This document shows positions 1-38,774 of a stretch of DNA of 64,000 nucleotides, one piece after another (the stretch's first letter is position 1; every line of letters starts with the position of its first letter). The DNA comes from Pocillopora verrucosa. Taxonomy: Eukaryota; Cnidaria; Anthozoa; Scleractinia; Pocilloporidae. The DNA lies in NCBI RefSeq assembly GCF_036669915.1, contig NC_089313.1, forward strand, positions 12,852,292 to 12,916,291. Direction: 5' to 3'. A program made the translations under genes and the position numbers. Under the pieces are notes generated by a model that worked only from the letters and a program-made list of their open reading frames with translations, was not told the DNA's origin and did no database searches.

Positions 1-1028
1 GGATTTTGATTATGTGTCGAGCTTGCAATGTAATCGGCAATATCTGAGTAATTCTTTGAGCTTTGCTGCTATCTCAAAAAATTCTTATCAAACTTAACAT
101 GCAGTCAAGTTATGTACAATATACTACTGAAATAATTAAACACATTGGAACAGATTCACATTTTCCTTGCTCTTTGACAATTTTAATGAATTTTTGTTTC
201 TTTTTCAATAATGAATACACTATCATAATAATATTCACCCCTTTTTTTGCCTAAAAAACTAGAATCTAAAGATTACAATGGTAGGATCCTTTCACGTGAA
301 TCGAAACAGAGAGAAAACCCTAGCTTTTCATGACGTACCGCCTTAACAGTTATCGTTTTTTCGGCAAATACTGCAAGATTTACATGAATAAAACAATCAC
401 GTCGCAAACATTAATCAGCCGTTCAACTGGAATTGGCGTGCAGTTTCATGTAACTCTACACAGATAAACCAGCATTATTCGTTTATAACAAGTAAACTGG
501 AGGACGAGCCATTAGAAAAGAAAATAGCCAACAGCAAAGGAAAAATGAAAGTGTTATTCATCTGAGCTCATGGAAAAACGACAAAAGCAACAACTACAAT
601 TTGTAAATGAAATCTTTGCGAATTTGATTGAAAATGACAATAACCAGTTTGCAGTTGACTCGTTGTTTTTCCAATGGCCTCTCTCTAAAAGTTCGAAACG
701 GGTCATTTTAATCTACATTTAATTAATTTTCATGTATTTAAGCAGACAAACCAAGCTAAGAAAATACTTCTCTTGGGATTACCGCGAGCAAGAGAAAAAA
801 GAATGGAACATTATTTTCTCTTGCGTGATGGAAAACCTATTGCACGAACTTATAACTAATAAAAATACAATGAACAAAATGGAATCCACTGACTCAAAGT
901 TCTACAATGTTCTTTTCACTGAGACTACGACGAAAAGCTCATTCGAGAAATGATTTGAAGATTAGGTAAAAACAATTTTTTAGAGGTAATTTGTAGTCTG
1001 ATTGTGATGGTAGATAAATGATCCACAT
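1..1028. repeat. 3' flank of TRIM unit 1 (segmental duplication)
   Basis: This stretch has no supported gene. It is related along its length to about 9130-9994 and 19890-20884, the regions just downstream of the other two TRIM genes. Shared landmarks are the 'tgtgtcgagcttgcaatg' start, the 'gacgagccattagaaaagaaa' stretch and the 'tgtagtctga...tgtgatggtagataaat' end before each stop codon. The short open frame at 732-953 lies in this shared noncoding flank and is not maintained in the other copies. The left end of the block is cut off by the window edge. Confidence 0.75.
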
Positions 1029-3287
1029 TTACACAAATATCTGAATGCGATTGTTCAAACAATCAGCTACAACTATCCTACCATCACTAAGAATTGCTGT
1101 AGATGTTGGAAACATGAACTCTCCTGGCCCACTCCCTTTTTTTCCAAACTTTGTTACAAACCTACCACTCAGTTCAAATACCTGAACTCTGTGATTGTCT
1201 CTGTCACAGACCATCAGGTGCCCTGCCTTGTTAACTGACAAAAAACCAGGTGAGTTTAACTCCCCGTCCATTTTCCCCTTATTTCCAAATTTGTACAAAA
1301 AGTTGCCATTTATATCAAACACTTTGATACAATGTTCACCAGCGTCTGACACTATTAGATATTTGTCATATTGAATACAGTGACAAGGACAAGTAAAACC
1401 CTCACCTTCACCTTCACCAAGTTTATACAAAAACTGGCCACTGGGAGAAAAGGTTTTTATAACTTTGTTGCCCCAATCGGCAACAATGATATTTTCACTC
1501 CTGTCGACAGATAAACCCAAAGGAGCCCTCAGCTGGTGATCAAGATTTCCTTCACCACCAAACTGGCTCAGGTACTCACCCTGATCATTAAACAATTGAA
1601 CTCGGTGGTTACTACTGTCTACTACTATACTGCGTTTATTTTTATCAAATGCTATCCCAGCAGGCCAATTTAACTCTCCCTGTTTATCACTCTTCCTACC
1701 AAAAGATCTTAAGTAAGTTCCATCACTACTGAATACCTGAACCCTGTGGTTATCAGTATCAGTCACTACAATGTCATCTCGTTCATTCACTGCCACTCCA
1801 TATGGACTGCATTGCATTCCAACGGACGAGCCTTTTTGTCCAAAAGATAACACGTGTCTGAACTGTCTGGGTTTCGGTTTAACAGGAAATGGACTACCAC
1901 GAATGTGTTCTTCATTTATTTTCACTGATACTTGGCATTTTCCTGTATCTTTGAGGAAATATCTGACTTTGTAGCTACCATCTTTCTCATCTTTGAGTCG
2001 CACTTCCGTCGCACAGTCATGGCCTTGCTGATTTTTTATTTCCACGTTTACACAGTCACGCTGATTGTAACATTGTTCTCCTTCGGCATTTCTTGTTGTT
2101 AATAGAAAGTTTAATTCAAGTCCAACTCTCGCCTCACTGATTCCTTTCCCTTCGGCGGTTGACTGATGAGCGCAAGTGTTTGTCACAAAAGTTTGAAATG
2201 AGCCGATGTTGTCAGAGTTAAGACTGTCAAGTAATGTTTTGTTTTCTTTGAAAAGGAATTGACGAAGACCTTCAAGGTCAGTCGCGGCTTGTTTTCCAAT
2301 ATCACTGACTTCCTCAGGTAAGACCGTATTCAGTGACTTATCTAACTGTGTAATCTCGGCATTTGTACATCGTTTTAAAAGTGTTTCCGTTTTTTCGACT
2401 GCTGTTTCAAGTAGTTTGACTTGACGCTGGACCTCGCGTTGTTGAGTTCGCACACATCCAAGGGATTCTCTAATTTGTTTATCAGCTTTGTTTAACATTT
2501 CCTTCTTCTTTGTTTCAATGAGTGAGATCATGTTCTCAGCAAACGTGTGGATGTCTCGTTTCACTGCATTGCCTCGCGCTTCAATTTGTTCACACTGTCT
2601 TTCAAGATCAGCGATTACGTTTTTCTTGTGTTCAATATTTTTCTTTTGTGTCTCGATCACAGACTTGACTTGTATCTTGCGTTCACTTGCTGCTTCTTCT
2701 AGAACAATCTTAGCGTGACCATCATGGATGGTTGCAACACACAAATTACAAATGGCAACGTCACAGTTGTTGCAAAAGAACTTGAGTTCTTCTTTTTCGT
2801 GATGCTTCTGTTGGCAAAATACCGGCCGCTTTAAGACGTCCTCGATGTCTTGATCTTCAAAATCTTTCAGGGCAAGAACTCGATGCTCTTTATTCGCTTT
2901 GATTAAGTTATGCGCAATGATACACTCGTCACACCAGAACGCACAGCACTGAAAACAGTACGAACTGTGTCTGCTACTTTTGTCGCAGTTTCCACATTTT
3001 ACTCCAGCAGTATGGCATTCTTTGATGGCCATCACATCTAGCAAACTGTTCATACGAAAGTTTGTTGGCAGATCTTTGAGTTTTCCACTGCTAGGAACTT
3101 GAACTTCCTTTCGGCATTCAGGGCATGGGAAGATGTCACAGCGGCCACTTGTTCGTAAAATCCCGTTTAAGCAGTGCAGACAGAAAGTGTGCAAACATGG
3201 CAGTATCTTTGGATCAGTAAATGTGGTCATACACACAGAACAGGATACTTCTTCATGAAGATTGTCAAGCAAGGTTTTTATATCCAT
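1029..3287 (-). CDS. TRIM-NHL E3 ubiquitin ligase (TRIM2/3/71-like), copy 1
   Basis: Single-exon gene of 752 codons. The start is the ATG at 3287 (MDIKTLL); the open frame continues a few codons upstream without another ATG. Domains in order: C3HC4 RING (about 16-58, CSVC...CPEC), B-box 1 (about 98-140), B-box 2 (about 158-196, CQQKHHEKEELKFFC), coiled coil (about 200-330), filamin/ABP280-type Ig domain (about 385-480, ending RGSPFPVKPKP) and six NHL repeats forming a beta-propeller (about 485-752, e.g. NHRVQVF). In this family the RING transfers ubiquitin and the NHL propeller binds protein or RNA targets. All zinc ligands I checked are present and no frame break is visible. It is first of three same-length tandem copies (others at 9995 and 20885). 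Whether it is closer to TRIM2/3 or TRIM71 cannot be decided by eye. Confidence 0.93.
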   Translation of the reverse strand: MDIKTLLDNLHEEVSCSVCMTTFTDPKILPCLHTFCLHCLNGILRTSGRCDIFPCPECRKEVQVPSSGKLKDLPTNFRMNSLLDVMAIKECHTAGVKCGNCDKSSRHSSYCFQCCAFWCDECIIAHNLIKANKEHRVLALKDFEDQDIEDVLKRPVFCQQKHHEKEELKFFCNNCDVAICNLCVATIHDGHAKIVLEEAASERKIQVKSVIETQKKNIEHKKNVIADLERQCEQIEARGNAVKRDIHTFAENMISLIETKKKEMLNKADKQIRESLGCVRTQQREVQRQVKLLETAVEKTETLLKRCTNAEITQLDKSLNTVLPEEVSDIGKQAATDLEGLRQFLFKENKTLLDSLNSDNIGSFQTFVTNTCAHQSTAEGKGISEARVGLELNFLLTTRNAEGEQCYNQRDCVNVEIKNQQGHDCATEVRLKDEKDGSYKVRYFLKDTGKCQVSVKINEEHIRGSPFPVKPKPRQFRHVLSFGQKGSSVGMQCSPYGVAVNERDDIVVTDTDNHRVQVFSSDGTYLRSFGRKSDKQGELNWPAGIAFDKNKRSIVVDSSNHRVQLFNDQGEYLSQFGGEGNLDHQLRAPLGLSVDRSENIIVADWGNKVIKTFSPSGQFLYKLGEGEGEGFTCPCHCIQYDKYLIVSDAGEHCIKVFDINGNFLYKFGNKGKMDGELNSPGFLSVNKAGHLMVCDRDNHRVQVFELSGRFVTKFGKKGSGPGEFMFPTSTAILSDGRIVVADCLNNRIQIFV

Positions 3288-4689: not shown

Positions 4690-5300
4690 CGCTGTTCCTT
4701 GTAAAGTCGGTTGCCATGGAAAGGTCTTGTTCAACCCGCTATTGGTTTGGTCAAAAATGCAAATACAAAGTTCAGTCAGTAAAGGTGCACTGAAAATCAC
4801 TACAGAAATCGAACGAGATAATACAAACGACCCAGGAATGAGGTCAGACTATAATCTCAAAACCAGCATTTAACGAATGGCACGACCCCTTGGGGTGTTA
4901 ATGTAGGAGTGATGACAGATAGCATATGTGATTTGGACAAATATCAGACGAGTCACATATGAGATTATTCTCCAGGCTGACAGACCTTTGACAACATTCT
5001 GTGCGATTAACTGATGACGTTAAATGAAACAAATTTTGACATTCAATCCTTCAGTGAACTGCTCCTGTCTGACTAATTAAAACACTCGTCAAAAGGGAAG
5101 ATGTTATTGAGAGCGAAAAGTAAACAACTACCTTATAAAGAGTGCGGGACAATTCTGATTCCTTTTACAATGGAGCACTCGGTAGTGACATTTCGCTTTC
5201 TTTGGAAAAAGTCAATGGAAAGATAACTGACAAGGATGCAAGAAATTAGTTACCAGTGAAAAGTGTCTTATTATGCATACGAAATCCTAGATTGTGAGAA
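4690..5300. repeat. Repeat R, copy 1
   Basis: Begins 'gctgttccttgtaaagtcgg' and contains 'ggggtgttaatgtaggagt', 'agacctttgacaacattctg' and 'ttcagtgaactgctcctg'. The same series occurs at 8290-8790 (left part missing) and at 18720-19560. Copy 1 has internal deletions relative to the other two. A peptide-like stretch (DILHDLKKV) is readable in copies 2 and 3 but not here. I do not recognise the element. It lies between TRIM unit 1 and the ULK kinase remnant. Confidence 0.65.
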
Positions 5301-6065: not shown

Positions 6066-6136
6066 AGCAGTTCAAAAATCAATTTTGCAAGGGTATATTC
6101 ATACTATTAGTAAGATACATGTAAGTTTTTGCTTAC

Positions 6137-7878
6137 ATGCACGATGGGGAACTCTGCCAGTCAAGAAAGGATGAGCAAAGAATTCACCTGCAAACAGAAA
6201 AATAAGTTAATACTTATTTAATAATCAATCTGCCTTGATGGGTGCTTGATACACAAGTTAATGATGGCATATGGCAATCCTCAAAAAACCCCTCCTCTGA
6301 AAATAACCCTGTGAAAGCCTCCTGAATGCTACATTTCCTTGGAAAACAAATGTACATGTATTATGTGCCAAGAGTAAAGCTTTGTCTAACATAGCCTAGG
6401 AAACTTGATTTTCAGCGTAAAATGATACTGTTCTCTTCTCTCATCTGCGCTCAGTCTTGTTCTCAGATTATCACCTGAGCAGTAACTCATTTTTATAAAC
6501 TTAGAGTTACTGATTACACATGAATAAATGGAAAGATTTGTGGTTAAATTAGATGATGCCATCATTTTTAGAGAAAAATAAAACTTTCTCATACATGTTA
6601 GCCTCAATCTACCCTATACAATTCACCTTCAAATTGCCAGGAACAAGCTTTGTGTTTTTGTAACAGTAAATTTAACAAAGATGTAATAATTGTTTACCAA
6701 AATCCAGCCTCTCATGAGGGTTCCTTTTTAATAATCCAATAAGTAGGTCTTTCAAGTGGTTTGAAGTACCAGCTGGTATACTGAGGTTACCAAAAACAGT
6801 TGTTTACTATTCATGGATAAAATAAGACTCATCAATTGATAAAGCATGAAATAAATATGATATCTTCCACTAGTACGGTAATCAGATTGCATCTACCAAA
6901 CAATCAGGCACAGACTGAAGTACTTTTAGATCAAGAATTGAAAACTATTAGCATGTCATTTTGCCACTCACTTTGGAGAAACAGATTTTTCTCTTTTCAT
7001 AGAACTTCTTGACTGTTGGGGGCTACCTGGAAAATGACAAAATCAAGAAAATCATTGATTTTCATCTCATTTAACATTGAAAAAGTTTGTCACAATTGGC
7101 CTTTTAATGTCATGGTATGTAAGAGCACCTGAGAGGGGGCTTTACCAGTGAGACACTGATAACAATTGTCCCTACACTCCAGAGATCAGCTTTGGCATCA
7201 TATCCTTTGGACATTATAACTTCAGGAGCCTTGAATGACAAAAAAGGAAAATAAACTTGGTAAATGAATATATCAAAAGTGTGAAAGGGAATTGAAATTT
7301 CGAGCACATGTCATCAGTAATATTGAAAGGATATAATTCTTAGAACAAAAAATTGCTTTCAATACAGGGTTCTTCCCATAATTGCTGACTATGTAGTTTT
7401 TTATTTTTTTGAGTTCCTGCTTATTTGCAGATAATGACAAATTAGAAGAATTCTGCAGTCTAAAATGGCAGCAATATTATTTCAAATAAACCATTTTCAC
7501 TCGCAAATGAATAAAGGGGGTAAGTTTATAAAGAAACTGTGGTGTTGGTTAAGTGGGAGAGTATAGCAGGTAATTTAGTGTTAACAAATGAGTTGAAAAC
7601 GTAAATTGGCCACCATAAAGAGTAAAAAAGCTGACGTTTCGAGTGTTAGCCCTTCGTCAGAGCAATCGTTTTTGCTCACAGACTGTTTCACCACTACTTA
7701 TTTAGTGAAGGATGAAACTGTATTTCTAAATAGTTCCCAAAGAAACACAGTAGTAAAATTAATGCAACTCAGGAACTCAGAATATGTCAGACGTTTACAC
7801 AAACCATGTACATAGGGGATCCACATAAAGTAGCTGTCATTATTTCACCAGGGAGAAATCTTTCAAACCGAAAGTCAG
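6137..7878 (-). pseudogene. ULK1/2 kinase fragment, exons 8-12 only (broken copy)
   Basis: Exons and introns match the intact ULK gene at 34.1-36.0 kb: exon 8 copy 7805-7878, exon 9 copy 7129-7229, exon 10 copy 6972-7026, exon 11 copy 6698-6780, exon 12 copy 6137-6187. Similarity runs from about 6093 to about 8115 (to 36.02 kb in the intact gene) and stops before exon 7, so the HRD catalytic loop is absent. The DFG motif is changed to DFR and FAR to FER. Exon 9 lost 1 bp (101 against 102) in the VYQC codons. Exon 10 lost 4 bp (55 against 59). No start and no N-lobe remain. It is a dead partial duplicate, not a kinase. Confidence 0.9.
7507..7668. mobile_element. Repeat inserted in the intron of the ULK remnant
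   Basis: About 160 bp present here but absent at the matching place in the intact gene (about 35565-35575). It carries 'ggtgttggttaagtgggaga', 'aattggccacc' and the motif 'agctgacgtttcgagtgtta'. A related copy in the opposite orientation lies at about 32630-32770. Flanking 'ttttcactcgca' and 'tttttgctcaca' look like a worn target-site duplication, so insertion followed the segmental duplication. Confidence 0.6.
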
Positions 7879-8119
7879 CTTAAATAACTATAGAATAAGT
7901 AAAATTAATGGTACCACTACATTTATACAAAAAGTAGATACCTCAGACTTCTGCCATTGCCAGTCCCAAACCCAAATAAGAAAGGAAAATGAGGAGACTA
8001 GTAACTTTATGTTGTGAAAAGCATTTCGCCACAGAATACTGCAAAAATTTAAGAGAATTTAAGGCTTATCTCGGAGATAGTTCCTTATGAAGAAGATTGA
8101 CACTATGAGGTTAACGTTT

Positions 8120-8815
8120 GCGGTTGAATTGAGGCAAGATGAAGAGTAAATTTCACGACAGACACCTAGAGAGCCCTTATTGATGCTATTTACACCCAAT
8201 GAGATATGGAGAACAATAGCCTGTGTACAGCCGCCCCCTACCCTGCAAAAGAAAATCGGAAAGGGGCCCCCTACGCGATTTTCATTTGGAGGGTAATGAA
8301 TGACACGCCTTCTTGGGGTGTTAATGTAGGAGTAATGATAAATAGCAGACGTTACTTGGACAATTATTAGACGAGTCACATATAAGATTATATTCTCCTG
8401 GGTGACAGACCTTTGACAACATTCTGTGCGATTATCTGATGACGTTGACCAAAACAAATTTTCATATTCAATCCTTCAGTGAACTGCTCCTGACTGACTG
8501 GATAAAGCACTCGTCAAAAGGGGAGATGTTATTGAGAGCGAAAAGTGAACAAATGCCTTATAAAGAGTGCGGGACAATCCTGATTCCTTTTTACGGTGAG
8601 GTACTCGGTAGTGACATTTTGCATGATTTGAAAAAAGTCAGTGAGATGGTAACTGACAAGGATGTAAGAAATTTTATGTCAAACACCAAAAAAACCATAC
8701 CATGCCTTCAAACATTGTAATGTTTCTAACCACACACCCCGTGACTGAGGTTACCCGGTAGTTAATAGTAAATAAATAGGACTAATTATTGTCTTCTTAG
8801 GTATGAGAAATCCTC
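8120..8815. repeat. Junction sequence and repeat R, copy 2
   Basis: 8120-8290 is unmatched to the ULK gene and carries a 'tgtgtacagccgccccctac' stretch resembling a DNA-transposon end. From about 8290 to 8790 it matches repeat R (4876-5300 and 18900-19560). The R copy runs straight into the downstream flank of TRIM unit 2. The open frames at 8059-8457 and 8439-8720 fall in this repeat and are not credible genes. Confidence 0.55.
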
Positions 8816-9994
8816 AATTGTGAACAATACCGGCCACAGTTCGCGGTGACATCTGTCTAAGAACAAAAAGAGAATGTGGTAGTATTTATTTTATTGCGGA
8901 ACGGATTTTAACCTGATTAAAGTCGTGGATTTCGGCGCGCATCGACCGAGTTGATCTCAACAAAGCTTTCGGCAAAAAATTCAGGAAGCTGACCTTTCTG
9001 CTGATGTAATTCGGAGAAGAGTAAGAATTGGGCGTCGGTAAGTTTCTCCTATCGTCGCATCTTCTACCTGAAAATTCAAAGCGAGCGCCAGCTCCAAGCG
9101 AAAGTGGCTTGTTTATTCAACATATGGCCGAGCACTTTGCTTATGTGTCGAACTTGCAATGTGATCGGCAACATCTGAGTCATTCTTTTAACTTCGCTGC
9201 TACCTCAGAGAATTCTCATCAAACTCAACTCTCCACGGGTGTCAAAATTATGTACGGTATACTTCTGAATTAATTGAACACGCTGAAACAGATTCACATT
9301 TTCCTTGCTCTTTGAAACTTTTTATGAATTTTTGTTTCTTTTTCAATAATGAATACACCATCATAATAATTTTTCATCTCTTTTGTTTGCTTTCCCTAAC
9401 AAACTAGAATCTAAAGGTTACAATGGTAGCAATCTTACCGCAAACATTATTCAGTTCAACTGCACTTTGACTTGCAGCTTCGTTTAACTCTATACTAATA
9501 CACCAGCATTATTCGTTTACAACTAGTGAACGGAAGGACGAGCCATTAGAAAAGAAAATAGCCAACAACAATGGAAAAATGAAAGTGTTGTCCATCTGAG
9601 CTCACGGAAAAAACGAAAATTTGTGAATGAAATCTTGGCAAATTCGATTGAAAATGACAATAATCGGTTTACAATTGACTTATTATTTTTCTAATGGCCT
9701 CTTCCTAATTGTTCAAAACGTGTCATTTAAATCTACATTTAGATTGGGATTACCGTGAGATAGAGGAAAAAATGGCACATTATTTTCTCTTGCGTGGATG
9801 GAAAACCTTAAGCGCGAACTAATAACTATACAACGAACAAAGTTCTTTGAAAGTTCACTGACTCAAAGTTCTAAAATGTTCTTCTCACTGGGACTACAAC
9901 GACAAGCCTACCAAAATGATTTCAAGGCGAGGTAAAAACAATTTTTTAGAAGTAATTTGTAGTCTGAATGTGATGGTAGATAAATTTTCCGTAT
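8815..9994. repeat. 3' flank of TRIM unit 2
   Basis: Noncoding. About 8815-9190 is the direct-repeat segment D, shared with 19560-19930 and, more weakly, with the upstream flanks near 3660, 12640 and 23500. About 9130-9994 is the common TRIM downstream flank. Nothing else recognisable. Confidence 0.65.
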
Positions 9995-12253
9995 TTACTC
10001 AAATAACTGAATGCGATGGTTCAACCAATCAGCTACAACTATCCTACCATCACTAAGAATTGCTGTAGATGTTGGAAACATGAACTCTCCTGGTCCACTC
10101 CCTTTTTGTCCAAACTTTGTTATAAACTTACCACTCAGTTCAAATACCTGAACTCTGTGATTGTCTCTATCACAGACCATCAGGTGTCCTGCCTTGTTAA
10201 CTGACAAAAAACGGGGTGAGTTAAACTCCCCGTCCCTGTTCCCCTCATTTCCAAATTTGTACAAAAAGTTACCATTTATATCAAACACTTTGATACAATT
10301 TTCACTAGCGTCTGATACTATAAGATATTTGTCATATTGAATACAGTGTAAAGGAGAAGTAAAACCCTCACCTTCACCTTCACCAAGTTTATACAAAAAC
10401 TGGCCACTGGGAGAAAAGGTTTTTATAACTTTGTTGCCCTTATCGGCAATAATGATATTTCCTTTCCTGTCGACAAATAAACCCAAAGGACGGTTCAGCT
10501 GGTGATCAAGATTTCCTTTAGCACCAAACTGGCTCAGGTACTCACCCTGCTCATTAAACAATTGAACTCGGTTGTTCTCATAGTCTACCACAATACTGCG
10601 ACTATTCTTATCAAATGCTATCCCAATAGGCCTATTTAACTCTCCCTGTTTATCACCCTTTCTACCAAAAGATCTTAAGTAAGTTCCATCACCACTGAAT
10701 ACCTGAACCCTGTGGTTATCAATATCACTCACTACAATTTCATCTCGTTCATTCACTGCCACTCCATATGGACTGCATTGCATTCCAACGGACGAACCTT
10801 GTTGTCCAAAAGATAACGCGTGTCTGAACTGTCTGGGTTTCGGTTTAACAGGAAATGGACTGCCACGAATGTGTTCTTCATTTATTTTCACAGATACTTG
10901 GCATTTTCCTGTATCTTTCAGGAAATATCTGGCTTTGTAGCTACCATCTTTCTCATCTTTGAGTCGCACTTCCGTCGCACAGTCATGGCCTTGCTGATTT
11001 TTTATTTCCACGGTTACAGAGTCACGCTGATTGTAACATTGTTCTCCTTCAGCATTTCTCGTTTTTAACAAAAAGTTTGATTCAAGTCCAACAATCGCTT
11101 CATTAATTCCTTTCCCTTTGGCAGATGACCGATCAGCGCAAGCGTTTGTCACATAAGTTTGAAATGAGCCGATGCCGTCAGAGTTAAGACTGTCAAGTAA
11201 TGTTTTGTTTTCCTTGAAACGGAATTGACGAAGACCTTCAAGGTCAAATGCGGTTTGTTTTCCAACATCGCTGACTTCCTCAGGTAAGACTGTATTCAGT
11301 GACTTATCTATCTGTGTAATCTCAGCATTTGTACATCGTTTTAATAGTGTTTCAGCTTTTTCGACTGCTGTTTCCAGCCGTTCGACTCGACGCTTTACCT
11401 CGCATTGTTGAGTTCGCACACATCCAAGGGATTCTTTGATTTGTTTATCAGCTTTGTTTAACATTTCCTTCTTCTTTATTTCAATAACTGCGACCAAGTT
11501 TTGGGCAAAGTTGTGGATGTCTCGTTTCACTGCATTGCCTCGCGCTTCAATTTGGTTACACTGCCTTTCAAGATCAGCGATTACGTTTTTCTTGTGTTCA
11601 ATATTTTTCTTTTGTGTCTCGATCACAGACTTGACTTGTATCTTGCGTTCACTTGCTGCTTCTTCTAGAACAATCTTAGCGTGACCATCATGGATGGTTG
11701 CAACACACAAATTACAAATGGCAGCATCACAGTTCTTGCAAAAGAACTTGAGTTCTTCTTTTTCGTGATGCTTCTGTTGGCAAAATGCCGGCCGCTTTAA
11801 CACGTCCTCGATGTCTTGATCTTCAAAATCTTTCAGAGCAAGAACTCGATGCTCTTTATTCGCTTTGATTAAGTTATGCGCAATGATACACTCGTCACAC
11901 CAGAACGCACAGCACTGAAAACAGTACGAACTGTGTCTGCTACTTGTGTCGCAGTTTGCACATTTCACTCCAGCAGTATGGCATTCTTTGATGGCCAGCA
12001 CATCTAGCAAACTGTTGATACGAAAGTTTGTCGGCAGATCGTTGAGGTTTCCACTGCTAGGAACTTGAACTTCTCTTCGGCATTCAGGGCATGCGATTAT
12101 ATCATGGCCGCCACTTGTTCGTAAAATCTCGTTCAAGCAGTGAAGACAGAAACTGTGCAAACATGGTAGTATCTTTGGTTCAGTGAATGTGGTCATACAC
12201 ACAGAACAGGATACTTCTTCATGAAGATTGTCAAGCAAGGTTTTTATATCCAT
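9995..12253 (-). CDS. TRIM-NHL E3 ubiquitin ligase (TRIM2/3/71-like), copy 2
   Basis: Single exon, 752 aa, beginning with ATG (MDIKTLL), the same length and order of domains as copy 1: RING 16-58, two B-boxes about 98-196, coiled coil, filamin-type domain, six NHL repeats. All RING and B-box Cys/His appear intact. Compared with copy 1 the changes concentrate in the second half of the coiled coil (for example AQNLVAVIEIKKK against AENMISLIETKKK) and in loops of the propeller (EIVVSDIDNHRVQ against DIVVTDTDNHRVQ). An intact frame over 2.26 kb argues that the copy is functional or very young. It is flanked on the left by an ULK kinase remnant and on the right by an ULK C-terminal remnant. Confidence 0.93.
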   Translation of the reverse strand: MDIKTLLDNLHEEVSCSVCMTTFTEPKILPCLHSFCLHCLNEILRTSGGHDIIACPECRREVQVPSSGNLNDLPTNFRINSLLDVLAIKECHTAGVKCANCDTSSRHSSYCFQCCAFWCDECIIAHNLIKANKEHRVLALKDFEDQDIEDVLKRPAFCQQKHHEKEELKFFCKNCDAAICNLCVATIHDGHAKIVLEEAASERKIQVKSVIETQKKNIEHKKNVIADLERQCNQIEARGNAVKRDIHNFAQNLVAVIEIKKKEMLNKADKQIKESLGCVRTQQCEVKRRVERLETAVEKAETLLKRCTNAEITQIDKSLNTVLPEEVSDVGKQTAFDLEGLRQFRFKENKTLLDSLNSDGIGSFQTYVTNACADRSSAKGKGINEAIVGLESNFLLKTRNAEGEQCYNQRDSVTVEIKNQQGHDCATEVRLKDEKDGSYKARYFLKDTGKCQVSVKINEEHIRGSPFPVKPKPRQFRHALSFGQQGSSVGMQCSPYGVAVNERDEIVVSDIDNHRVQVFSGDGTYLRSFGRKGDKQGELNRPIGIAFDKNSRSIVVDYENNRVQLFNEQGEYLSQFGAKGNLDHQLNRPLGLFVDRKGNIIIADKGNKVIKTFSPSGQFLYKLGEGEGEGFTSPLHCIQYDKYLIVSDASENCIKVFDINGNFLYKFGNEGNRDGEFNSPRFLSVNKAGHLMVCDRDNHRVQVFELSGKFITKFGQKGSGPGEFMFPTSTAILSDGRIVVADWLNHRIQLFE

Positions 12254-16552: not shown

Positions 16553-16669
16553 AGTAATAGATCACAGATGATATCAAAGAGTAGAAAGAACAAAACGTGG
16601 CACACGAGGCGCAGCCGAGTGTGTCCTTGATGTTCTTACCACACTTAGACGTCATCTGTGATCTATTAC
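16553..16669. mobile_element. MITE with perfect 19-bp TIRs (unit 2)
   Basis: The left end 'agtaatagatcacagatga' (16553-16571) is the exact reverse complement of the right end at 16651-16669. The interior has 'aagaacaaaacgtggcacac' and no coding capacity. The same element sits at the equivalent place in unit 3 (27728-27845), so it was already in the ULK intron before duplication. Confidence 0.8.

Positions 16670-17382: not shown

Positions 17383-17384
<2 letters not shown>

Positions 17385-17430
<46 letters not shown>
17385..17430. repeat. (TA)n microsatellite
   Basis: An uninterrupted run of about 23 TA units after 'gtcttcg'. Unit 3 has only 'cacatttatataca' at the matching place (about 28571-28585), so the expansion is specific to the broken copy. 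Confidence 0.95.
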
Positions 17431-17432
<2 letters not shown>

Positions 17433-26240: not shown

Positions 26241-29200
26241 TTATTTCGTTGAGGCGGCGCAAACAAGGCGCCACAAACGAGACCAAAGGATACATTTATT
26301 CAACAGACGCCGATCTTCGTCAGTATGAGCTTCTTCCTCCAGGCCTTGAAGTAAAACCTGAGCAGTCTCGTACTTGACCTTACACTGAAAAGAATTTAGA
26401 GTTAGACTAAAAGAGAGAATAAAGAAAAACATTTTAAACTGCTGATAGACGAGAAAAAACAGAACTTGACAAGAAACAATGAACACGTGGAACAAACAAA
26501 TGACTGTTAGTCACCTCTTTTGGGTTTCCGAACACCTCGTCGAGGGCAGCATTTTGACACTAAAGAATCAAAAACAAAAACAAAAACAAAAACAGGAGGA
26601 AACTTGATAAAAAATTCAAGATCTAGCAAATAGCGAATGGCATGCCTCAACGTTAAAGGTAGTTACCTGTTCCATGGCGTAATGGTACATCAGTCTGTCA
26701 GCGCTGACCTGTGAGAAGGATATAAGATGTATTTTACTCTGCGTCAAATGAAGCAGTGGATAGAGAAGCAACCTCGCCACAGCTCACCTCCAGGCGTTTG
26801 TAAACAAAGCACCAGCAAGACAGTTTGAATTGAGCAGTATCCAGGGAATACTGATGGAAGGGGGGGCTAGGGAGGGGGGTGGGGGGAAAGGAGAACAAAG
26901 GGTGCAGAAAAGGAGCGGAGAGTTCAATCAAACGCACGTAGCCTAGAGCACCGCCCTTTGTAATGAGGTTTCCCCAAAACAAAATAACATTCATCACAAC
27001 AACCCATTCGACAAAGACATATTTTGAAAATGGCCCATGAGAATTCAGCTAAAATGGACGAAACTCGTCTGAAGCTTAGAAACGCGAGTGACCAAGCCAC
27101 GATTGATATAAGCTCTGCATATTACTCTTTGGTAGCGACAATGGTGCAAAGTTTTACGCCAATCGCAAAGCGAACAGTAGCAAAACCAAAGCAATTATGT
27201 TGCAGAAAGCTGATTTAATTCTCGAAAGGATTTAACACATACATATTGTAAGCTCACCGTCATAGATTTTCCATCAAGTGTCTGTAGTCCAGGTTCTAAG
27301 AGCTGCTTCAGGTGGGACGCCTTCTCCAAACACTGGTGATATCGACTGTTCAAGTCGTTTAGAACTGAAAATTGTAAACAAAGATAATAGAAAAACTTAA
27401 TGCTTCGTTCAGGCTTATTACGAGCACCCGTAGAAAAGGGTAAGGCCTCAGAGCATCTATCTGACTCACCATTCTTGACAGCATTGGAGGGTTTTAGGTG
27501 GCCAACTCTGATTTCTCCTTGTGCGAAGAGAAGAGATAGATTAAGAGCTCGTAGAGCTTTCACGTACAGTACCAACTGTTCCATTTTCCTGCAAAATGTT
27601 TGAACCTTAGTAAGTCACATCTCAGTAAAATCAAATGCTTCGCTATAAGGTAAAGTCTGTATTTGCAAATCCGAGTCCAGTGATCCTCTCCTTAACAAAT
27701 ATGTTTCATCTTACTATGAGTTAGTTCAGTAATAGATCACAGATGATGTCAAAGAGTGGAAAGAACAAAACGTGGCACACGAGGCGCAGCCGAGTGTATC
27801 ACTGATGTTCTTACCACACTTAGACGTCATCTGTGATCTATTACTCTACAGACTCACAGCGACATGGAATCTATTTGTTTTATATGATCAAAATGCAAAA
27901 TGTTGGTAATGGTGATGTCATCTTTGCGTCTGTCCTCCAATAGATCATCAGTAAGACCTCATCAAAATGTGTGTATCATTAAACTTATATCATTTAAATC
28001 CAATTTGTTACCTTAACTCGTCACTTTTCAGTCCAATCTGATCTGCGAGGAGGCTTTCGTTCTGTAAGAGGGAAAAACATTTGTTACGAAGAACAAAGAT
28101 TTAAAATTTTTGTAAATAATCGAACAATTCATTCGTCACATTGATAGACGGATGCGAGACTTTTAACCTGTTCAACTACGCAAATCACCAAGGGCAGCCA
28201 AAAAACAACATCAAATACGTACTTGTCGGATGGCCACAGAGTCTGTCAGCACTGTAAAAGGTGTTTCCCTGGCACTGATCACCTCAAGAATGGCATCCGT
28301 CAATGACAAAACGAAATTGAGTTTCCTAACGCCCTCCGTGTGCTCCATCTGGGGTTTTTACAAATGAAAGAAAATAGGGAGCCGTCATTTCCCTTAGGTT
28401 GTAAGTTAACAACAATGTTGTTTCGCTCTGTTTTGCAATCTGTGATTGTAAAAGAATCGCAGAAAACACCCAACCTCTGACTTAAAATCTCTTTTGGCCT
28501 AAAAAAAAAAATAAAAGCTTATCGAAGGCTTTTCTGACAATAAGGGTCGCCCTGAATGTCTTCGCAAATACACATTTATATACATGGTATATTTGTTGGA
28601 GATCAACTTTCAATTGATTGCAAAAAATTGACTTGGGATTAAATTAGTTTTGCTTCAATACTCTCTCTTATTATTATAGAAAATTCGCACATCTCCCTCA
28701 ACCAATCAGATGCATACTTAATACAACAGTGTTTCACACACTTAACCCTTTACACCGCAAGATCATCATGCATATTCTCCATACTGTTTTCTATCCATTC
28801 CAAATGGTACTGAAATGGAGAATTTATTCAACAGTCAAGAGCTTCTCGGGTGGGTGATCATTTCCCTTATTCGCATGACCTTTATGTTTAAATCAACAGT
28901 GACACTGTACGGAGAGATAAGATACTAATCACTCTTAAGGTTTACAGATTTGGGGCTGCTTTGCTGTTCTTCTTTGCGTTCCCATTGGATGCAACTGAGA
29001 TGTTCCCTTGTTTTAATTGGCCGTTGTGATCTCGTTAGTTCAGTTTAATTACAATCAATGGACTAGTGCTGCAAGTCAGTTAACTATTTTCTTACATCTA
29101 AGAGAGTATCCTCTGGCAGTTCAGGAGCTATAAGAGCTATGGGGCCCTCCATGTCTGGTGAAGACGCCTCGGTTTCCTCTCGTCCAACCATGAGCCTCTT

Positions 29201-32200
29201 GGGGCTCCTGGGAGGAAAATTGTCTCCAAATCCGAGAGTGACTTTCGTTCCTGTCGAGATAATCAAGGCATCAGGGTGAACGGTCTCTCAGCAGCTCACA
29301 TCCAGTAGTTGTAAAAAATTGCTTACTATTCACACATAAGGAAGGAAATAATGATAATCCCTCTTTGTAAATTTTTCTTAGTATGACATAGACCCCATTA
29401 CTAAAAAGGTAGAAATCTAAATTTATTTTTCATGCTGTTACCACTTTTCACGCGCTTATGCAGATTGCTTGGTTTCTGATTGGTAGATGTGATTACCTTG
29501 GTTTTGGTTCCACGCCACTCCATCGAAAATCACTCTAACACGTAATGTTTACCTTGACTAACAACAGCAGGTTTCTCTCCATTCTTAGTCGCGTTTGGTG
29601 AATTCCTCCCGAGTAGAAACATATTCTCGCTCGTTTTTGGCGAACACGACCCAACAGTAAAAAGACCCTTCAAGGGCTTCATCTTATTGTCAGGATCAAC
29701 TGTGGGATCGCTGGCCTCCGTACTATGGGATGTCTTTGTCGGCGAGCCTGGTATGGTAGGAAGTCCGGTAGGAGAGGATGAAATAGGTGGACTCTTTCCT
29801 CTCAGGGGGGTGAATCCACCACCTGAATTCCGACGGAACACGGGAGATGTTCCTGCAGCCCCTAGTTGGAACCCTGTTGATGCCAACAAGCTTCCCTTCC
29901 TTGGAAGGCCCATTGCTAGTATGGCCGGCGAGCTGTGCACGCGTATGATCTGCTTGGTCTCTGCTCCTGGCTCAGAGAGGTCTGTTATTGGGACACCCAT
30001 TCCTGACCTTGAATGACGAGCCAGAGCTGTCAATATTGACGAGCTGTCCGGTGACTGAGTAACCAAAGGTTCAATATTGGAGAGAGCTCTTCGGAAAGTC
30101 CCAACTGCTGCACCCCGTGCCAGCCCCTTATCAGCATTCGTGTTAGAAAATCCTGCAAAAGCTTGCTGGTGCAAGCCCACGGTCATCTCAGACCGTGCTT
30201 GCGCACTTAAAGCTTGAGCAGCAGCAGTGAGAGGGATAGAAGATCCCTTGGGGCTAACCTGCGCTGCTTGTCTCTGTGTTGCTGGACTGTTTTTTCGGCT
30301 GCTGCCACTTTTCAATGCACTTGGGCTACTATTTGGGCTCTTGCCTACTAACGGTTTAGAGGACGGGGTGCCTGTCTGCTTTCTAGGAGTCATGCCTGAA
30401 CTGGCTCCGTGGTGAGTAGGAGATGGGGAGGTTCGAGAGGGTGCCTGTTTGGGTACACTTCCACTGCGTGGAATAGGCAGAGGAGAGGATGATAGCTGAC
30501 CCTTTGGTGTAGGTCCTGGAGAGGCACTTGTGCGCTTTCTTATTGTGATTTCAACTGGAGGGGAATCTGCAGATGATGGAGATGACAATGGGGAAAGAGC
30601 AGGCGGGGCCTGTACCAGTGGTGAAGATGGGGAGACTGGGGATGCTGACTGTGGCGAACCCACCATAAAGGTGGCTCTCTGAGGAGTGCGTGATGATGGA
30701 GGAGAAGGAGACTGTGGACTGCTGACAGTCCTTGGAGGTGATTGGCTATGGAAAAGGAAGAAATTACAGTATCATTTTAATAGATCCTAACTAAATCTGC
30801 AGAACTAATGAGAAAGAATATTTACCCGTAGAAAGGAAACAGCGGATCAGAATGATGCCTCTGCTGATGATATCCTGGAGACAAATTGAAATTCATCTTA
30901 TAACATCCTTCTACCAACAAGATAAAAATATCAATTCTCCCTCTTTCCGCCATACATTTCTACTAGTCTAAGCTCTGAGAATTCAGTTTTAAACCAAACA
31001 AACTTCCCATATTTATAATTTCATTTCTTCTCGGCACCTTTCTGCTTGACAGTGTATGAATAGTTTAAGGGGAAACTAAAATTATTAGCTTGATGATTCA
31101 TTCTTGTCGAGTACAGTTCTTCACTTATATGTGAAGGTTAAGCAAGTCTTAATTTTTTTAAATCTAATTTTATCTTGATAATTGTTTTTACTACTTAAAC
31201 TAAGACCAGAAAAAATAAAGTCATCAAAGCAGATATTAAGACTTGTTCTTTAAAAAAAATCTTAAGTGTGATGGTGATAACTAAAACCTCTAAATGGACA
31301 GCGTAATAAAAACGAAAGGTTTAGAATCATGTTCTGTTTGGTTGTAACTTGACTGTGAAAATGATGGAGTCAGGCAAATGTTTTTGTTATAATAAAGTTA
31401 CAACTTCACATCTAAAATTATCCTAATTACAGAATTATGTGTATGTTGCATTGCAGTTTAGATTAAGAAGACCATAGCAATGATTTTGTCAAGGTATACA
31501 TGTAGCTTCAGACGTATTCTATACAAACAAATATGAATACTCACTTGGAGTTTCTGGATTAGATGGGACCAGCACAAAACCCTAATTGATAAGGTTGAAT
31601 TTTATACTGATTAGAATTAATAAGAAACAAATTCCTCAAGGAGGGGGAAGGAATAATAATTGAAGTCTCAGGCTGAAAAGGGGTAGTCTCTTATACAGAG
31701 TATCTGAAATAGGGCATGGTTTATCTACTCTTCTCTGTTATTTACAGCCATTTTATCTTATAAACTACGGGGTTATACAAGGATTTCTAGCCCTGCGAAA
31801 AGCCTTAACAACACACGTGAAAAAATATCGTATTTTTCCACGTGTGTTTGATATCGCCAATCAGCTGCTGACACGTCATGCGCCTTTCGCGCCACTCGGT
31901 CGGGTTGATGAATGAACGGCAAAGCCTTCACGATTCTCAATACAGAGTCATTTGACGTAATTTTTTCCGGATCATGGCTGCTAAAACACTGAAAAATCCG
32001 TATCGCTTACAGACAGTGACATTCAAACTTTCCTAGAAAGGGAGGAAACCAAATTACGGAAAGAAAAACCGAAAGTTACGTATTCGATGGCTTTGGTAAT
32101 GGACAACTGGAAGATTTACCACAGTCCGACTTTGGCCGTGTACCTGAAAGACTTCTTCTGTTGGTAAGGACCAAGTCAATAACTGAGAGTTTTGTACATT

Positions 32201-35200
32201 GAAAATTATGCCAATGGTTTGATTTTGTGGTGTTCCAACGCATTTTTTCATGTTGAGCCTTAGCGTCAACACACTTTATCTTGTGCACTGGATTAACATG
32301 CAGGCTAGCTAAATGGCAAGTCAGCATTAAGTACTCTCAAACAAACCTCAGCAGCTAGCTCATCATCTTGCACTGCATTTGGAGGGTAGGCACCTTGAGA
32401 ACTAAGCTGTGCACCTGAGTCTTGAAATAAACAAACAAAAAAAGGATAAAATATAAGCAATAAATATAAACTTTCCAATTCCAGTTTTGACAATTTAGCA
32501 CTTCTAAACCCTGCATAGCATACCTCCAGGTACACAATCATTACCAGGAAATTTGCAAGTCATTGCATTTTCACTGAAACAATCCACTGAGTGGAACACA
32601 TCACAACTATAACAGGGTAATTTATTATTAGAGTGATTGGATGAAGGGCTAACGATCAATCTGTCAGCTTCTAAACTCTTTACGGTGGCCAATTTATGTT
32701 ATCAACTCAGTTGACAATACTTAATTACCTTGTTGTACTCTCCCACCAATGCAGCACCACAATTTCTACAGAAACTTATCTCCTTTATTTACATCACAAC
32801 TATACCTTGCAGCACTAAGACAGCCAATAGGCCTCTACAAAAATTCATTATTTGCAGAATTTTTGCCTGTGCAGTTTGAAGTTTGTACAACAACATCCAG
32901 AGCTTGGCATGCTAAACATTATGCTATCATATATCCTCTTTATATCTATCATTATTCATTAATTAATATATAAAAATTCAAAGCCTTTCCCAAAACTTAC
33001 TGTTTGCAGAGGTGCTGATATTCATAATTGTGGGAGGGTCCTGAGGGGAAATGCCTGTGCCATCATAGGGTGGAGTGATGCGATGAAGAAGATCAACTCT
33101 TATGTCACCCAAAGCTTCTGCACCAAAGTTCTATTGAATTGAATTCAGAGAATAAAAAAGAAAAAAAAAACCGTAAGGGCACTAACAGGTGACTTTATAT
33201 GACTTATAAAATGAGGAGAGAAAATTGTTCAAAATTATGGACTGGATTAAAGTGTTAGTTATTTTGACATTCTTACACTGCATATCCAACTGGCTAACCA
33301 TGTTTTCACATTACATGTAAGTGATTGTCACAGTAGTTTCTTGCCAAGAAATAGATTTGTAACATTAGCAGAAAAATCTAGTGTTTAAAAGTATGTCTCT
33401 TGCCCAGGTAGTTGGTACATATACATGTAGGTTGCTTTACACTGTTTCCCACATAAATCCTGGTTCTAGGGGTTAGGTGTCCCTAAAAAAACTTGAAGTC
33501 TATCTACTACATGTTGAGAAAAACTCATCCTGTGAACATTGGAGCTGAGTCCATAGGGAAATTGACTAGTTTGATGGCCTTCCTTTTCTAAACAGCTATT
33601 TAGGCTATGCACTAGCTCCTCCACATTAACAAACAATGTTACAGTAATGTTAATGATGATGGCACACTTACTGGGGAATAGGAAGGTGACCTTGTTCCAT
33701 GAGAACTGCCAGAGTATTTACGCTGAGGAACTGGAACAGCAACTGGGGTAGCTACATACATGTGGAAAGATATTAAAAAATCAAATGTTAAAACAATTTC
33801 AAAAGTTATCCAATTCTTTTAAAAGTTGTCCATGGACATTTCCAGGATAGGGATAGTTTATGAGTCTAAAACATCAAAAATGTTAATATTTTTAATAAAT
33901 TATTTCTGCCATTTAAATCTTAGGTTAAACTACAGTTGTAGGTCTCTTTTACATTTACAAAGTCAATTATATTTCTAGAGGGATTACCGTCAACATAATG
34001 AAAGTTTTCACAGACAGGTGTACATGTATAAATTTCTTTCTAAAACAAACATCTCACTCAATTATTTTACTTTCTTTGTTCCAGTTAACTGCCTACAGCT
34101 GTATTTGCCTATATTAACACTATTAGTAAGATACATGTAGGTTTTTGCTTACATGCACGATGGGGAACTCTGCCAGTCAAGAAAGGATGTGCAAAGAATT
34201 CACCTGTAAACAGAAAAATAAGTTGATATATATTTAATAATCACTGCCCTGATGGGTGCTTGATACACAAGTTAATGATGGTATATTTAAACAATAAACA
34301 CATTAAGGGTGCCATATCAACTTGAAATTGTACAATCCTCAAACAATCCCTCCCTCCCTTCCTGCTGAAAGTTACCCTGTGAAAGCCTCCTACAAAAATG
34401 CTGCATTTCTTTGGAAAACAAATGTACATGTAGATGTATTATGTGCCCAGAATGAAACTTTGTCTAACACAGCCTTGGAAACTCGCTTTCTTAAAAATAA
34501 ATTTTCAGCTCAAAATGGTTCTGACCTCTTCTCTCATCTGTGCTCAGCCTTGTTCTCAGATTATCAACAGCAGCAGTAACTCATTTTATAAACTTAGAGT
34601 TATTGATTGCACATGAGTAAATAGAAAGATTTGTGGTTAAATTAGACAACACCAGCCTCAATCTACCTCAAACAATTCACCTTCAATCTTTGTGTTTTTT
34701 AACAGACTTCTCAGTAAATTAAACAAAGATATAAAAACTATTTACCAAAATCCAGCCTGTCACGAGGATTCCTTTTTAATAATCCAATAAGTAGGTCTTT
34801 CAAGTGGTTTGAAGTACCAGCTGGTATACTGAGGTAACAAAAAACAGTTGTTTACTATTCGTGGATAAAATAAGACTCAGTATTGATAAAGCATGAAATA
34901 AATATGATATTCTACTAGTACAGTAATCAGATTGTATCTGACAAACAAGCAGGCACAGACTGAAGTACTAGATCAAGATATACAAAGAATTGAAATATTG
35001 TTAGCTTGCCATTTTGCCACTCACTTTGGAGAAACAGATTTGCTCTTTTCATAAAACTTCTTTAACTGCTGAGGGCTGTTTGCCTGGAAAATGACAAAAT
35101 TAGAAAAAATCATTGATATTATATAACATCGATAAAGTTTGTCACAATTGGCTTTTTAATGTCATGGTATATAAGAGCACCTGAAAGGGGGCTTTACCAG

Positions 35201-38200
35201 TGAGACACTGGTAAACAATTGTCCCTACACTCCAGAGATCAGCTTTGGCATCATATCCTTTGGACATTATAACTTCAGGAGCCTTGAATGACAAAGAAGG
35301 AAAATAAACTCAGTAAATGAATATATCAAAAGTGGGATATAGAACTGAAATTTTGACCACATGTCATTCAGTAATAATGAAATATGGTACAAAAAATTAT
35401 TTAAACACAGAGTTCTACCAATAATTGCTGACTACATGTAGTTTAATTTGTTTTATTTCTTTTATTCTCTGCTTATTTGCAAATACATGTAATGACAATT
35501 TAGAAGAACTCTACGAAGTCCAAAACAGCAGCAGTATTATTTCAAATGAACCATTTTCACTCACAAAGACTGTTTCACCACTAATAATTTAGTTAAGGGT
35601 GAAACCATTTTTCTAAATAGCACCCAGAGAAACACATAATTATAGTTCATGCAACTCAGGAACTCAAAATATCTCAGCAGTTTATACATACCATGTACAT
35701 AGGAGATCCACATAAAGTAGCTGCCATCATTTCACCAGGGAGAAATCTTGCAAACCCAAAGTCAGCTAAAACAACAATTCAGAATATGTAAAATAAATGG
35801 TAATGACCAGTACAATAATACAAAAAGTAGATACCTTAGACCTCTCCCATTGCCAGTCCCAAACCCAAATGAAAAAGAAAAAAAAATGAGGTGGCTAGTA
35901 ACTCTATGTTGTGAAAAGAATGTTTGCTACAGAATACTGCAAGAATTTGAGACGTTGTGGCTTATCATGGTGAAAGTTCCTTATGAAGAAGGTTGACACC
36001 ATGAGGTTAATGATTGAGGTGGCTGTTCACAAGCTAGGAAAGCAACACCCATGCAAAACCTACCAATCTTTATCTTGATCTGTGATGGTGAGGGAGTGGT
36101 TGTCCCTGCATGGTGCAGCAGTAGATTCTGAGGCTTTAAATCTCTGTGCACGACACCTTTGGATTGCAGTGTGCACATGGCAGAAGCTGAGGAGAACCAA
36201 AATTATTTAACAAATTGAATATCATCAAAAGTCAGAATAAATACATAACAACTATATTCCAGCTACACTGTAAAAGACAATGTAAATCAAATATCAACAG
36301 TAGGAAAAAATAAAATTAATGAAAAACATACCTATCTGACGTAAGAAAATATGGATTGTATCCTCACTGAGAGTTCCCTTTGCTGTAAGGAATAATGTAG
36401 ACTTGTTTATAACATTAATCCTTTACACCCTAACATCAGTATGCATATTCTCTATACTGTTCCTTGTATATTTCCTAAGGTCCTAACAAGGAGAATCTGT
36501 TTAACAACTGAGAACTTCTTCAGTCAGTGATCATTTCTTTTATTCTCATGACATTAATGTTGGATTCAAGGGTGATATTGAAAGGAGAAACTAGATGTTA
36601 GTCACTCTTAGGGGTTAAAGGGTCAATAACCCTTTTGGTAACAGTGTATATGTACATGTACCTTAAGTTTGATAACTTATTCATTGTAACAGAAGTGAAC
36701 TATTCTTACCACGAAGGTAGTCTGCAAGATCCCCTCCATTGCAATACTGTTGAATCAAGAAACACTACTGCTTAACTAGAGTATAACACCAGAATTTTTA
36801 TTACAACATTGAGAGGCAAGAGAGTTGTAAAACAGAAGGAAAATGAGCGACATAACAGCACAATGTCTCAAAACTTTACAGAGGGTTGCAAAGGGGGCTC
36901 CTGATCCTCTTTATCCTTTAGAAAAAGTCATGAATTACGTATTTAGAAAGGAAAACTTCAAACAGCTATGGAATAAGGTAACACAATAAGAGAACATATA
37001 ATATAATAGCTGCATATCTGAATAAAAAACACCAAACACCATTGAAACTTTGCTGAAATACTCTGCAAAGCGGCCATAAAATTCTTTGGTCTGTGATGCC
37101 TTGGCACACTTAGTACTAAATGCAAAGTGTGTCAAATAGTTTGATGACATAAATTTTAGTTACAAAGAAAAAACATCAAACAAACAAAGATGACTAACCT
37201 CCATAACAAGAAAGACATTATTGGATGTTTCCTAAAGAATATATGCAGTCAACGATCATTATCATATAAAAAACTTGCAACCTTTACAATAAAATTGATA
37301 GTATTGATAAAATTATAAACCACATAACATGACCGCAGTCAGTGTCTGGGTCAAAGGCAGGCTTAATTTTCCCCAAAATATGACTATTATTTTAGGCTTT
37401 TAAATCAAATTATACATTCCAAACCCAAAGGGGTAGAGATAGTGGAGGAAAATTTGAACCTAAAAGGTGGAAAAAACAAGTGTTTGACAACGGCTTTTAC
37501 ATTGCCTTCTATTTTGACGTTACTTAAAACTAGATCAATTTACACGGCACGCAAGTATGAAATAATTTTCTGAAAAAAACGTAGTCGGTATCTTATTCTT
37601 TCATTCTGGGCAATCTTCCAAAATTCCAAACACATCATTCTTCTTATAAATCGAAAATATTTATAATTCCATCATTACCTGACAGTCGAAAAGAGAAACC
37701 ACATTTTCGTGATGAAGTTCCTAAAATGAAAGATATAAACATTGTTCACAAGTAGGTACATATGCTTTTTAGCACGCAAGAAAAAGGTTTTCTAAGTTAC
37801 AGTGTCTTAAATTACGCGGGATAAATTCACTTTTCAAAACAAGGATACTTAACGGGAATATTAGAAACCCAATATTGAAGTTTGACCGCTCGATCAAGGG
37901 CAATCACTAAGCTGGCTGCACATGACAACTGCGTGAAGGATTGCTATTATTTCAATGAACTTTCCCCTTGGGCATATATTGTGTCTTGTGATCACGCAAT
38001 TAACAATGGCTTGTCAGACAAAAACCTCGCTCTGCAAAATGAATGTGTATTGCATAAGATAAATTCTACGGTAAAGTTATCCCTCTCTCACCTTTAGAAT
38101 TTTTATTTCCTTTGCAAGAAGATTCTGAGTCTTGGAGAGATTCTTCTTTGCGATGACCTTAATAGCTACCACGAAGTCATCTTTCTGCAATAAAGAGAAA

Positions 38201-38774
38201 TATAAGCTAACATCACGTACAACCAGTGAGAGAGGAAGTCAAAAGGACACAGACGTAAGGAAAACTTGCATCAGTTGGCGTTTCTCTGCAGCGATATGCT
38301 TGGCGCGTTTCCTATGGGATTTATTAAACCAATAGCGCTAATAAATCTGTGTGAAGCTCACCGATTTTTTATGACCATTAACTAAGCAAATGTAATGACG
38401 AGCGAGGTGATGGCTTGCTCGATATCAAAACAAAAATTTGCGTAATGAAAGCATAGACTATAAATGTCAAAGATATGTACCCATAGGCTCACATTTGTTC
38501 GCTGATGAGGCAAAACTTTGGTTATTCTATCTTCGGAAATCTATTCGACACTTTTCTCTTAGATTAAAAAAAAAACAAACTCGGAAAACTACTCGGCCAA
38601 AAGCGAATCGCGTCGGAAAGCGAACGATCAAAGAAATTATTTCGTCTTCGCAAAGCCGTGGAAAAGTACATTGTACGTTACCTTTCTGTGATGTCCTTTA
38701 AAAACGACTGCAAAAGCTCCATGTCCAATAAAGTCTTTCTTGCTGTACACAAATTCACCTACTTGCTCTGACAT
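26241..38774 (-). CDS. ULK1/2: ULK1/ULK2 (Atg1) autophagy-initiating Ser/Thr kinase, 26 exons
   Basis: Exons (minus strand): 38774-38682, 38184-38092, 37720-37679, 37231-37199, 36746-36710, 36382-36332, 36186-36064, 35765-35692, 35282-35181, 35083-35025, 34828-34746, 34203-34153, 33751-33672, 33130-33001, 32420-32347, 31581-31545, 30874-30826, 30745-29553, 29250-29096, 28348-28223, 28061-28012, 27588-27470, 27364-27258, 26708-26667, 26559-26515, 26384-26241. All are bounded by AG/GT and all phases join; the sum is 3192 nt (1063 aa, near the ~1050 of vertebrate ULK1). The kinase domain spans about 8-280: glycine loop [16 protein letters not shown] Lys40, HRDLKPQN with Asp132, DFG 159-161, APE from 183. 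Then comes a LIR-like FVLV (377-380), a long Ser/Pro-rich region in exon 18 and a C-terminal region resembling the EAT/MIT domains that bind ATG13 and FIP200 (LPEDTLLD onward). ULK phosphorylates ATG13, Beclin-1 and others to start autophagy. The last exon may be frame-shifted by a 14-bp insertion (see findings). Confidence 0.95.
27728..27845. mobile_element. MITE with 19-bp TIRs (unit 3, in ULK intron)
   Basis: Same element as 16553-16669: 'agtaatagatcacagatga' at the left and its inverted copy ending at 27845. It sits in the intron between ULK exons 21 and 22. Confidence 0.8.
28742..28945. mobile_element. MITE-like element, family with 36415-36624
   Basis: Shares with 36415-36624 the series 'ctttacacc', 'tgcatattctc', 'atactgtt', 'aagagcttct/gaacttctt', 'gatcatttc' and 'actaatcactctta/gttagtcactctta'. 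About 200 bp, in the ULK intron between exons 19 and 20. The left terminus starts 'ttaaccctttaca'. Unit 2 lacks this stretch, within its 0.8-kb deletion. The sequence is one I associate with abundant coral repeats; that recollection is not verified. Confidence 0.6.
31770..32290 (+). mobile_element. Decayed DNA-transposon remnant with hairpin, possibly Crypton-like
   Basis: In ULK intron 15. It starts near a long hairpin, 'acacacgtgaaaaaata' / 'tatttttccacgtgtgt' (31811-31847). Further on, the plus strand reads a peptide containing [15 protein letters not shown] followed, after a frame change, by ERKTESYVF and [10 protein letters not shown]. These stretches resemble the N-terminal part of Crypton-type tyrosine recombinase proteins as I remember them. 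No complete frame survives. Assignment to Crypton is tentative. Confidence 0.35.
32630..32770. mobile_element. Repeat related to 7507-7668, opposite orientation
   Basis: In the ULK intron between exons 14 and 15. It carries 'ttacggtggccaatttatgt', 'gttgtactctcccaccaatg' and 'gggctaacgatc', the reverse complements of motifs in the insertion at 7507-7668. The minus-strand open frame 32504-32692 runs through it and is not part of ULK. Confidence 0.5.
36415..36624. mobile_element. MITE-like element in ULK intron 5
   Basis: About 210 bp between ULK exons 6 and 5. The ends 'ttaatcctttacacccta' and 'cttaggggttaaagggtc' are roughly inverted. Same family as 28742-28945. Noncoding. Confidence 0.6.

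Follow-up and report, generated by a model that had tools for sequence, protein, structure and literature searches.

Tandem gene clusters have been described in coral genomes, and gene conversion is stated to be very rare in corals in part of that account (Noel et al. 2023, PMC10236652). In a second source, a passage on gene families gives the NHL repeat and B-box zinc finger orthogroups as expanded in merulinid corals (PMC11639872), a picture that fits the locus reported here. This locus lies in a 64,000-nt stretch of Pocillopora verrucosa contig NC_089313.1 (the window, meaning the whole of the DNA analysed), where the minus strand carries the entire array: three TRIM-NHL ORFs, a single ULK1/2-type gene that is open, and two remnants of ULK collinear with it (Table 1). 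We consider it probable that the array arose by serial partial duplication, with the ULK pieces as passengers and the TRIM copies constrained in residues 1-470 and diverging mainly on a single face of their NHL propeller.

Self-BLAST of the window resolved collinear head-to-tail blocks, the main ones with an E-value of 0, so that the head-to-tail TRIM/ULK array proposed earlier from the sequence is real; both ULK remnants are collinear with the live gene, and the non-collinearity that would have spoken against duplication was not seen. TRIM1 is followed by 435 bp of unmatched sequence, a copy of the unit-start segment E (E1), 796 bp unmatched, ULK exons 8-12 and 169 bp unmatched, beyond which come E2, TRIM2 and a 3’ part of ULK, and then E3, TRIM3 and ULK. 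The three fillers (4256-4690, 5298-6093 and 8125-8293) had no collinear match in self-comparisons of the window. Because a copy of E stands between TRIM1 and the exon 8-12 fragment, this fragment is part of a fourth unit, one that has no TRIM; where the sequence-only reading counted three units, there are four in all. The TRIM-less unit either suffered a deletion of ~14.5 kb or never contained a TRIM. Collinear head-to-tail units and a sharp junction mark the array as a tandem segmental duplication.

Inverted repeats in 4200-8700 amounted to 19 pairs, with no clear element among them. Palindromic repeats of the AATTCCTAGGAATT type occur at 5904-6056, in the unmatched filler beside the exon 8-12 fragment. 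Adjoining the array is a rhodopsin-family GPCR ORF (40852-41739, plus strand; Pfam 7tm_1), and further along the window are gamma-glutamyltranspeptidase exons (47211-49312, minus strand; Pfam PF01019 in two ORFs) and nuclear receptor exons (55266-56780 and 60884-61216, plus strand) with a zf-C4 DNA-binding domain and two ligand-binding-domain pieces, from one gene or two.

Table 1. Features of the TRIM/ULK array, in window coordinates
Feature	Coordinates	Strand	Counterpart in unit 3	Description
TRIM1	1029..3287	-		Intact single-exon TRIM-NHL ORF, 752 aa
TRIM2 (window copy)	9995..12253	-		Intact TRIM-NHL ORF, 752 aa
TRIM3 (window copy)	20885..23143	-		Intact TRIM-NHL ORF, 752 aa
Open ULK1/2-type gene	26244..38774	-		Kinase exons, open stretch, C-terminal MIT exons
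TRIM1 block	5-4255		19894-23892	Self-alignment
E1	4691..5297	.	18722-19575	Copy of unit-start segment E, same first base as E3; opens TRIM-less unit; self-alignment
Unit 1 ULK remnant, kinase exons 8-12	6094..8124	-	34110-36020	Self-alignment; alignment to live ULK
E2 + TRIM2 + ULK 3’ part	8294-18719		about 18900-30776	Self-alignment
E2	8294..9135	.		Unit-start segment left of TRIM2; lacks the first ~180 bp of E; arbitrary right limit
Unit 2 copy	12955..18719	-	23760-30776	3’ part of ULK (about 15450 onwards) and its 3’ flank
Tract identical to live ULK	15492..15735	-	26289-26834	Match apart from 302-bp deletion in unit 2
J3 head-to-tail junction	18719..18722	.		ULK intron (=30776) joined to E
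E3	18722..19893	.		Unit-start segment left of TRIM3; ~197-bp insertion; right limit arbitrary

The earlier description of the TRIM genes as intact and exactly 752 aa long holds for 3/3 ORFs, all of which match RING, B-box, filamin and NHL domains. The C3HC4 RING was recovered in 3/3 copies both by Pfam and as a motif, one B-box zinc finger was found by Pfam in 3/3 (a second is suggested by Cys/His spacing only), and the filamin domain and NHL repeats place the copies in TRIM class VII. Within residues 1-200, all Cys/His columns but column 50 are identical across the three copies; residues 196-365, for which no Pfam match was shown, may be the coiled coil. The best PDB matches of the proteins were TRIM3, TRIM71 and TRIM2. 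A search for TRIM3 relatives in prokaryote genomes (18 stretches) gave one 30%-identity NHL match, in a Phycisphaerales MAG, and none was found in viral contigs (5 stretches).

Residues 1-470, from RING to filamin, are under purifying selection, with pN/pS of 0.38, 0.42 and 0.49 in the three pairs of copies (p = 8e-6, 4.5e-5 and 4e-4). In the NHL part the ratios were 1.05, 0.83 and 0.96, none of them different from 1, and constraint is not detectable there; the contrast between the two parts gave p = 0.008, 0.064 and 0.045 for the three pairs, which are not mutually independent. By NG86 dS, TRIM1 and TRIM2 are only slightly closer to each other (0.116) than the other pairs are (0.138-0.143). 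The three copies look alive, and they are most likely paralogous predicted E3 ligases that share a catalytic end and differ in their targets.

Among the three copies, 75/282 NHL columns are variable, and these recur at shared offsets when counted from the Asp in the motif V-x-D-x-x-N: position -16 varies in 6/6 blades and positions -25, +1 and +2 in 5/6. This blade-phase clustering was matched in 0/20000 permutations. The four hot phases were chosen from the same data, which inflates p-values computed for those phases; a test by loop class and a comparison with PDB TRIM2 and TRIM3 are independent of that choice. In the propeller convention, the DA and BC loops form the top face. Variable columns made up 44/102 of the DA/BC loops, 11/56 of the AB/CD loops and 20/124 of the rest (top loops versus all other NHL columns, p = 5e-6; top versus bottom loops, p = 0.003). 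The control pair, PDB TRIM2 and TRIM3, covered 221 of the 282 columns (one insert letter was omitted from each chain, and TRIM2 was set to the TRIM3 register there) and was identical at 176/221, differing at 13/82 columns of the top loops and at 32/139 of the remainder. At the same 221 columns, the window copies differed at 24/82 top-loop and 19/139 other columns (TRIM3/TRIM1), 26/82 and 19/139 (TRIM3/TRIM2), and 20/82 and 13/139 (TRIM1/TRIM2). We infer that NHL divergence is directed to one face; the phase clustering is seen in the copies themselves, and the face is assigned from the convention.

Relaxed constraint may account for this divergence, since NHL pN/pS is not distinguishable from 1 and the ratios in the top loops, 1.19-1.27, are not significantly above 1 (Fisher p 0.59-0.85). 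The SPRY loops of vertebrate TRIM proteins change under selection for new targets. We regard as tentative, and on balance doubtful, the comparable proposal that recognition is diversifying in this family of TRIM-NHL paralogues, with the top-face loops selected for new targets (microbial, viral or RNA); on this still speculative proposal, the same positions would change round the six blades and tandem duplication would supply the copies. RNA binds the top surface of the NHL propeller in the portions of two reports that deal with it (PMC8251876, PMC9070667), and protein ligands may bind top or bottom according to a passage of the first (PMC8251876). A literature search on hypervariable NHL paralogs and on Brat residues found no paper. 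The one-faced divergence is a lead worth following: in an expanding TRIM family of animals, the NHL propeller may be acquiring a recognition face that varies between copies.

In unit 3, ULK begins at 38774 and has 12 kinase exons (38774-34153) with GT-AG introns, no stops and in-frame splicing, among them a 33-nt exon at 37231-37199 on the minus strand that is needed for a complete kinase domain. An open stretch of 403 codons (30744-29536, with a likely donor after 29553) and C-terminal exons (29251-26244) matching the ULK1 C-terminus and ATG1-like MIT1/MIT2 are the other modelled parts. The kinase product had ULK2 and ULK1 chains as its best PDB matches (a PDB search with one ULK exon gave no match), and the gene has the two marks of ULK1/2, a ULK-type kinase domain with catalytic motifs and a C-terminal tandem MIT domain. 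The earlier statement that ULK is intact in unit 3 therefore stands for the kinase exons, the 403-codon stretch and the C-terminal exons and is limited to them, 34153-30746 lying outside.

Neither remnant retains an open reading frame. The smaller one does consist of exons 8-12 in our numbering, as had been proposed (exons 8, 9, 11 and 12 were recovered by tblastn, exon 10 by DNA alignment only), and carries a DFG to DFR change, deletions of 1 bp in exon 9 and 4 bp in exon 10, and an intronic insertion of about 150 bp, matched in inverted orientation at 32640-32789. A ~150-bp sequence is present in opposite orientations at 7510-7658 in this remnant and at 32640-32789 in live ULK, and is perhaps a small mobile element. 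For unit 2, a reduction to exons 18-24 had been described, but the run is not clean; we found the exons at 29093-29251 and 26515-26559 missing, two others cut, and the big exon frameshifted, with seven deletions, one insertion and 3 stops, as well as a second insertion past the likely donor. Over 361 codons of the big exon, some few of which lie beyond the likely donor (29553), pN/pS between unit 2 and live ULK was 0.48, a value confounded by gene conversion; a copy neutral from birth, set against a constrained partner, would give a ratio at or just above 0.5, to which 0.48 is close. The two pieces do not overlap, and calling them complementary halves overstated their extent, as they account for 1.9 kb and about 4.5 kb in a gene ~12.5 kb long.

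How the unit 2 remnant came to be partial is best seen at junction J3, where the ULK intron sequence of unit 2 ends and, 2 bp on, segment E begins. The same E boundary recurs at the start of E1, where identity is 39/45 on the right and 6/45 on the left. Since the unit 2 ULK ends 2 bp from the junction and the E boundary recurs, truncation at birth is indicated; a later decay of the 5’ part would demand a coincident E boundary, or copying afterwards. Tandem duplication of block 18722-30776 would yield the agreement between J3 and the E boundary directly, and under it the unit 2 ULK piece would have been without promoter and kinase from the outset. In E3, a ~197-bp insertion at 19078-19275 is absent from E1 and E2.

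The sequence-only reading had a block holding both genes duplicated and the extra ULK copies then lost, perhaps because ULK dose matters. Duplication itself is supported, by collinear blocks with broadly alike noncoding divergence. Lesions in both remnants suit passengers of such a duplication and would also suit decay of whole copies, and the exon 8-12 fragment together with E1 is compatible with a large copy (E to 36020) that underwent an internal deletion. Against this account, the unit 2 ULK end sits at the duplication junction, and E1 makes four units, one of them TRIM-less; we rejected the birth of unit 2 as a whole TRIM+ULK unit on the junction evidence, and regard the account as a whole as unlikely. 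Dosage sensitivity is not needed to explain the remnants.

The serial duplication that we favour would have copied, head to tail, the whole TRIM-NHL gene together with variable amounts of neighbouring ULK. Because breakpoints fell inside ULK, the extra pieces would have lacked the promoter and first exons, or have been cut down early, and would since have been passengers, in places homogenised with the live gene by gene conversion. TRIM fits whole inside most of the copied blocks; its three copies stayed open, kept residues 1-470 constrained and diverged mainly on one NHL face. The unmatched fillers of 435, 796 and 169 bp permit more than one order of duplication events, and the exon 8-12 fragment is possibly what remains of a larger copy after the loss of about 14.5 kb that included a TRIM. 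Partial tandem duplication is itself ordinary (a literature search on it found no paper), and it leaves fragments of neighbouring genes that can be taken for decay or dosage loss.

Noncoding K80 between copies was mostly 0.08-0.27: E copies differ by 0.136-0.148 (SE about 0.02, star-like), TRIM 3’ flanks by 0.16-0.19 and ULK remnants by 0.04-0.15, with 0.27 for E2/E3 at 8674-9135. These distances, and the differing structures of the units, led us to reject an assembly artefact of allelic or misjoined copies, which is highly improbable; in addition, Ks of tandem and of allelic pairs is given as very distinct for two corals in a section of PMC10236652. The ULK of units 2 and 3 showed 530 differences over 5590 aligned sites, at 0.005-0.236 per 200 columns, with both ends high and the middle low. 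The longest identical run spans 244 columns of exon and intron (the maximum in 2000 column shuffles was 96), joined over the 302-bp deletion of unit 2, with 217 columns on one side. Gene conversion with live ULK is the simplest reading of this tract and a likely one. Uneven divergence, in E2/E3 as in ULK, blurs dating.

Local near-identity to live ULK, in the 26667-26708 exon and at the start of exon 9, could also suggest that the remnants act on live ULK as non-coding or truncated regulators, for example as a decoy of its partner-binding C-terminal end. We rejected live remnants on their frameshifts, stops and lost exons, and the identity reaches into introns, as gene conversion predicts; such a role is very improbable. 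Least likely of all is a selected TRIM-ULK pair, kept adjacent because TRIM-NHL proteins regulate ULK: according to part of a review (PMC10790450), TRIM-ULK1-BECN1 complexes form in vertebrates, yet no extra unit combines a TRIM with an open ULK, which argues against a kept pair, one unit has a ULK piece and no TRIM, and adjacency in one window, all that links the two genes here, is no evidence of selection or partnership.

Compared with known systems, the window TRIM copies share the RING, B-box, filamin and NHL order of class VII (subfamily C: TRIM2, TRIM3, TRIM71), and differ from the PDB TRIM2/TRIM3 pair, which lacks their clustering of NHL changes in one phase and on one inferred face over 221 columns. 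The live ULK has the kinase domain and C-terminal MIT1/MIT2 of the ULK1/ULK2 (Atg1) kinases and is ordinary in its modelled parts, whereas the two extra copies are broken fragments. The array resembles the head-to-tail birth-and-death clusters described in corals (Noel et al. 2023, PMC10236652); fragments of neighbouring genes such as those found here are not described in sections 12, 13 and 15 of that paper. Gene conversion is given there as very rare, and the 244-column tract suggests a local case here, which would be an exception to the published rarity of conversion in coral tandem arrays.
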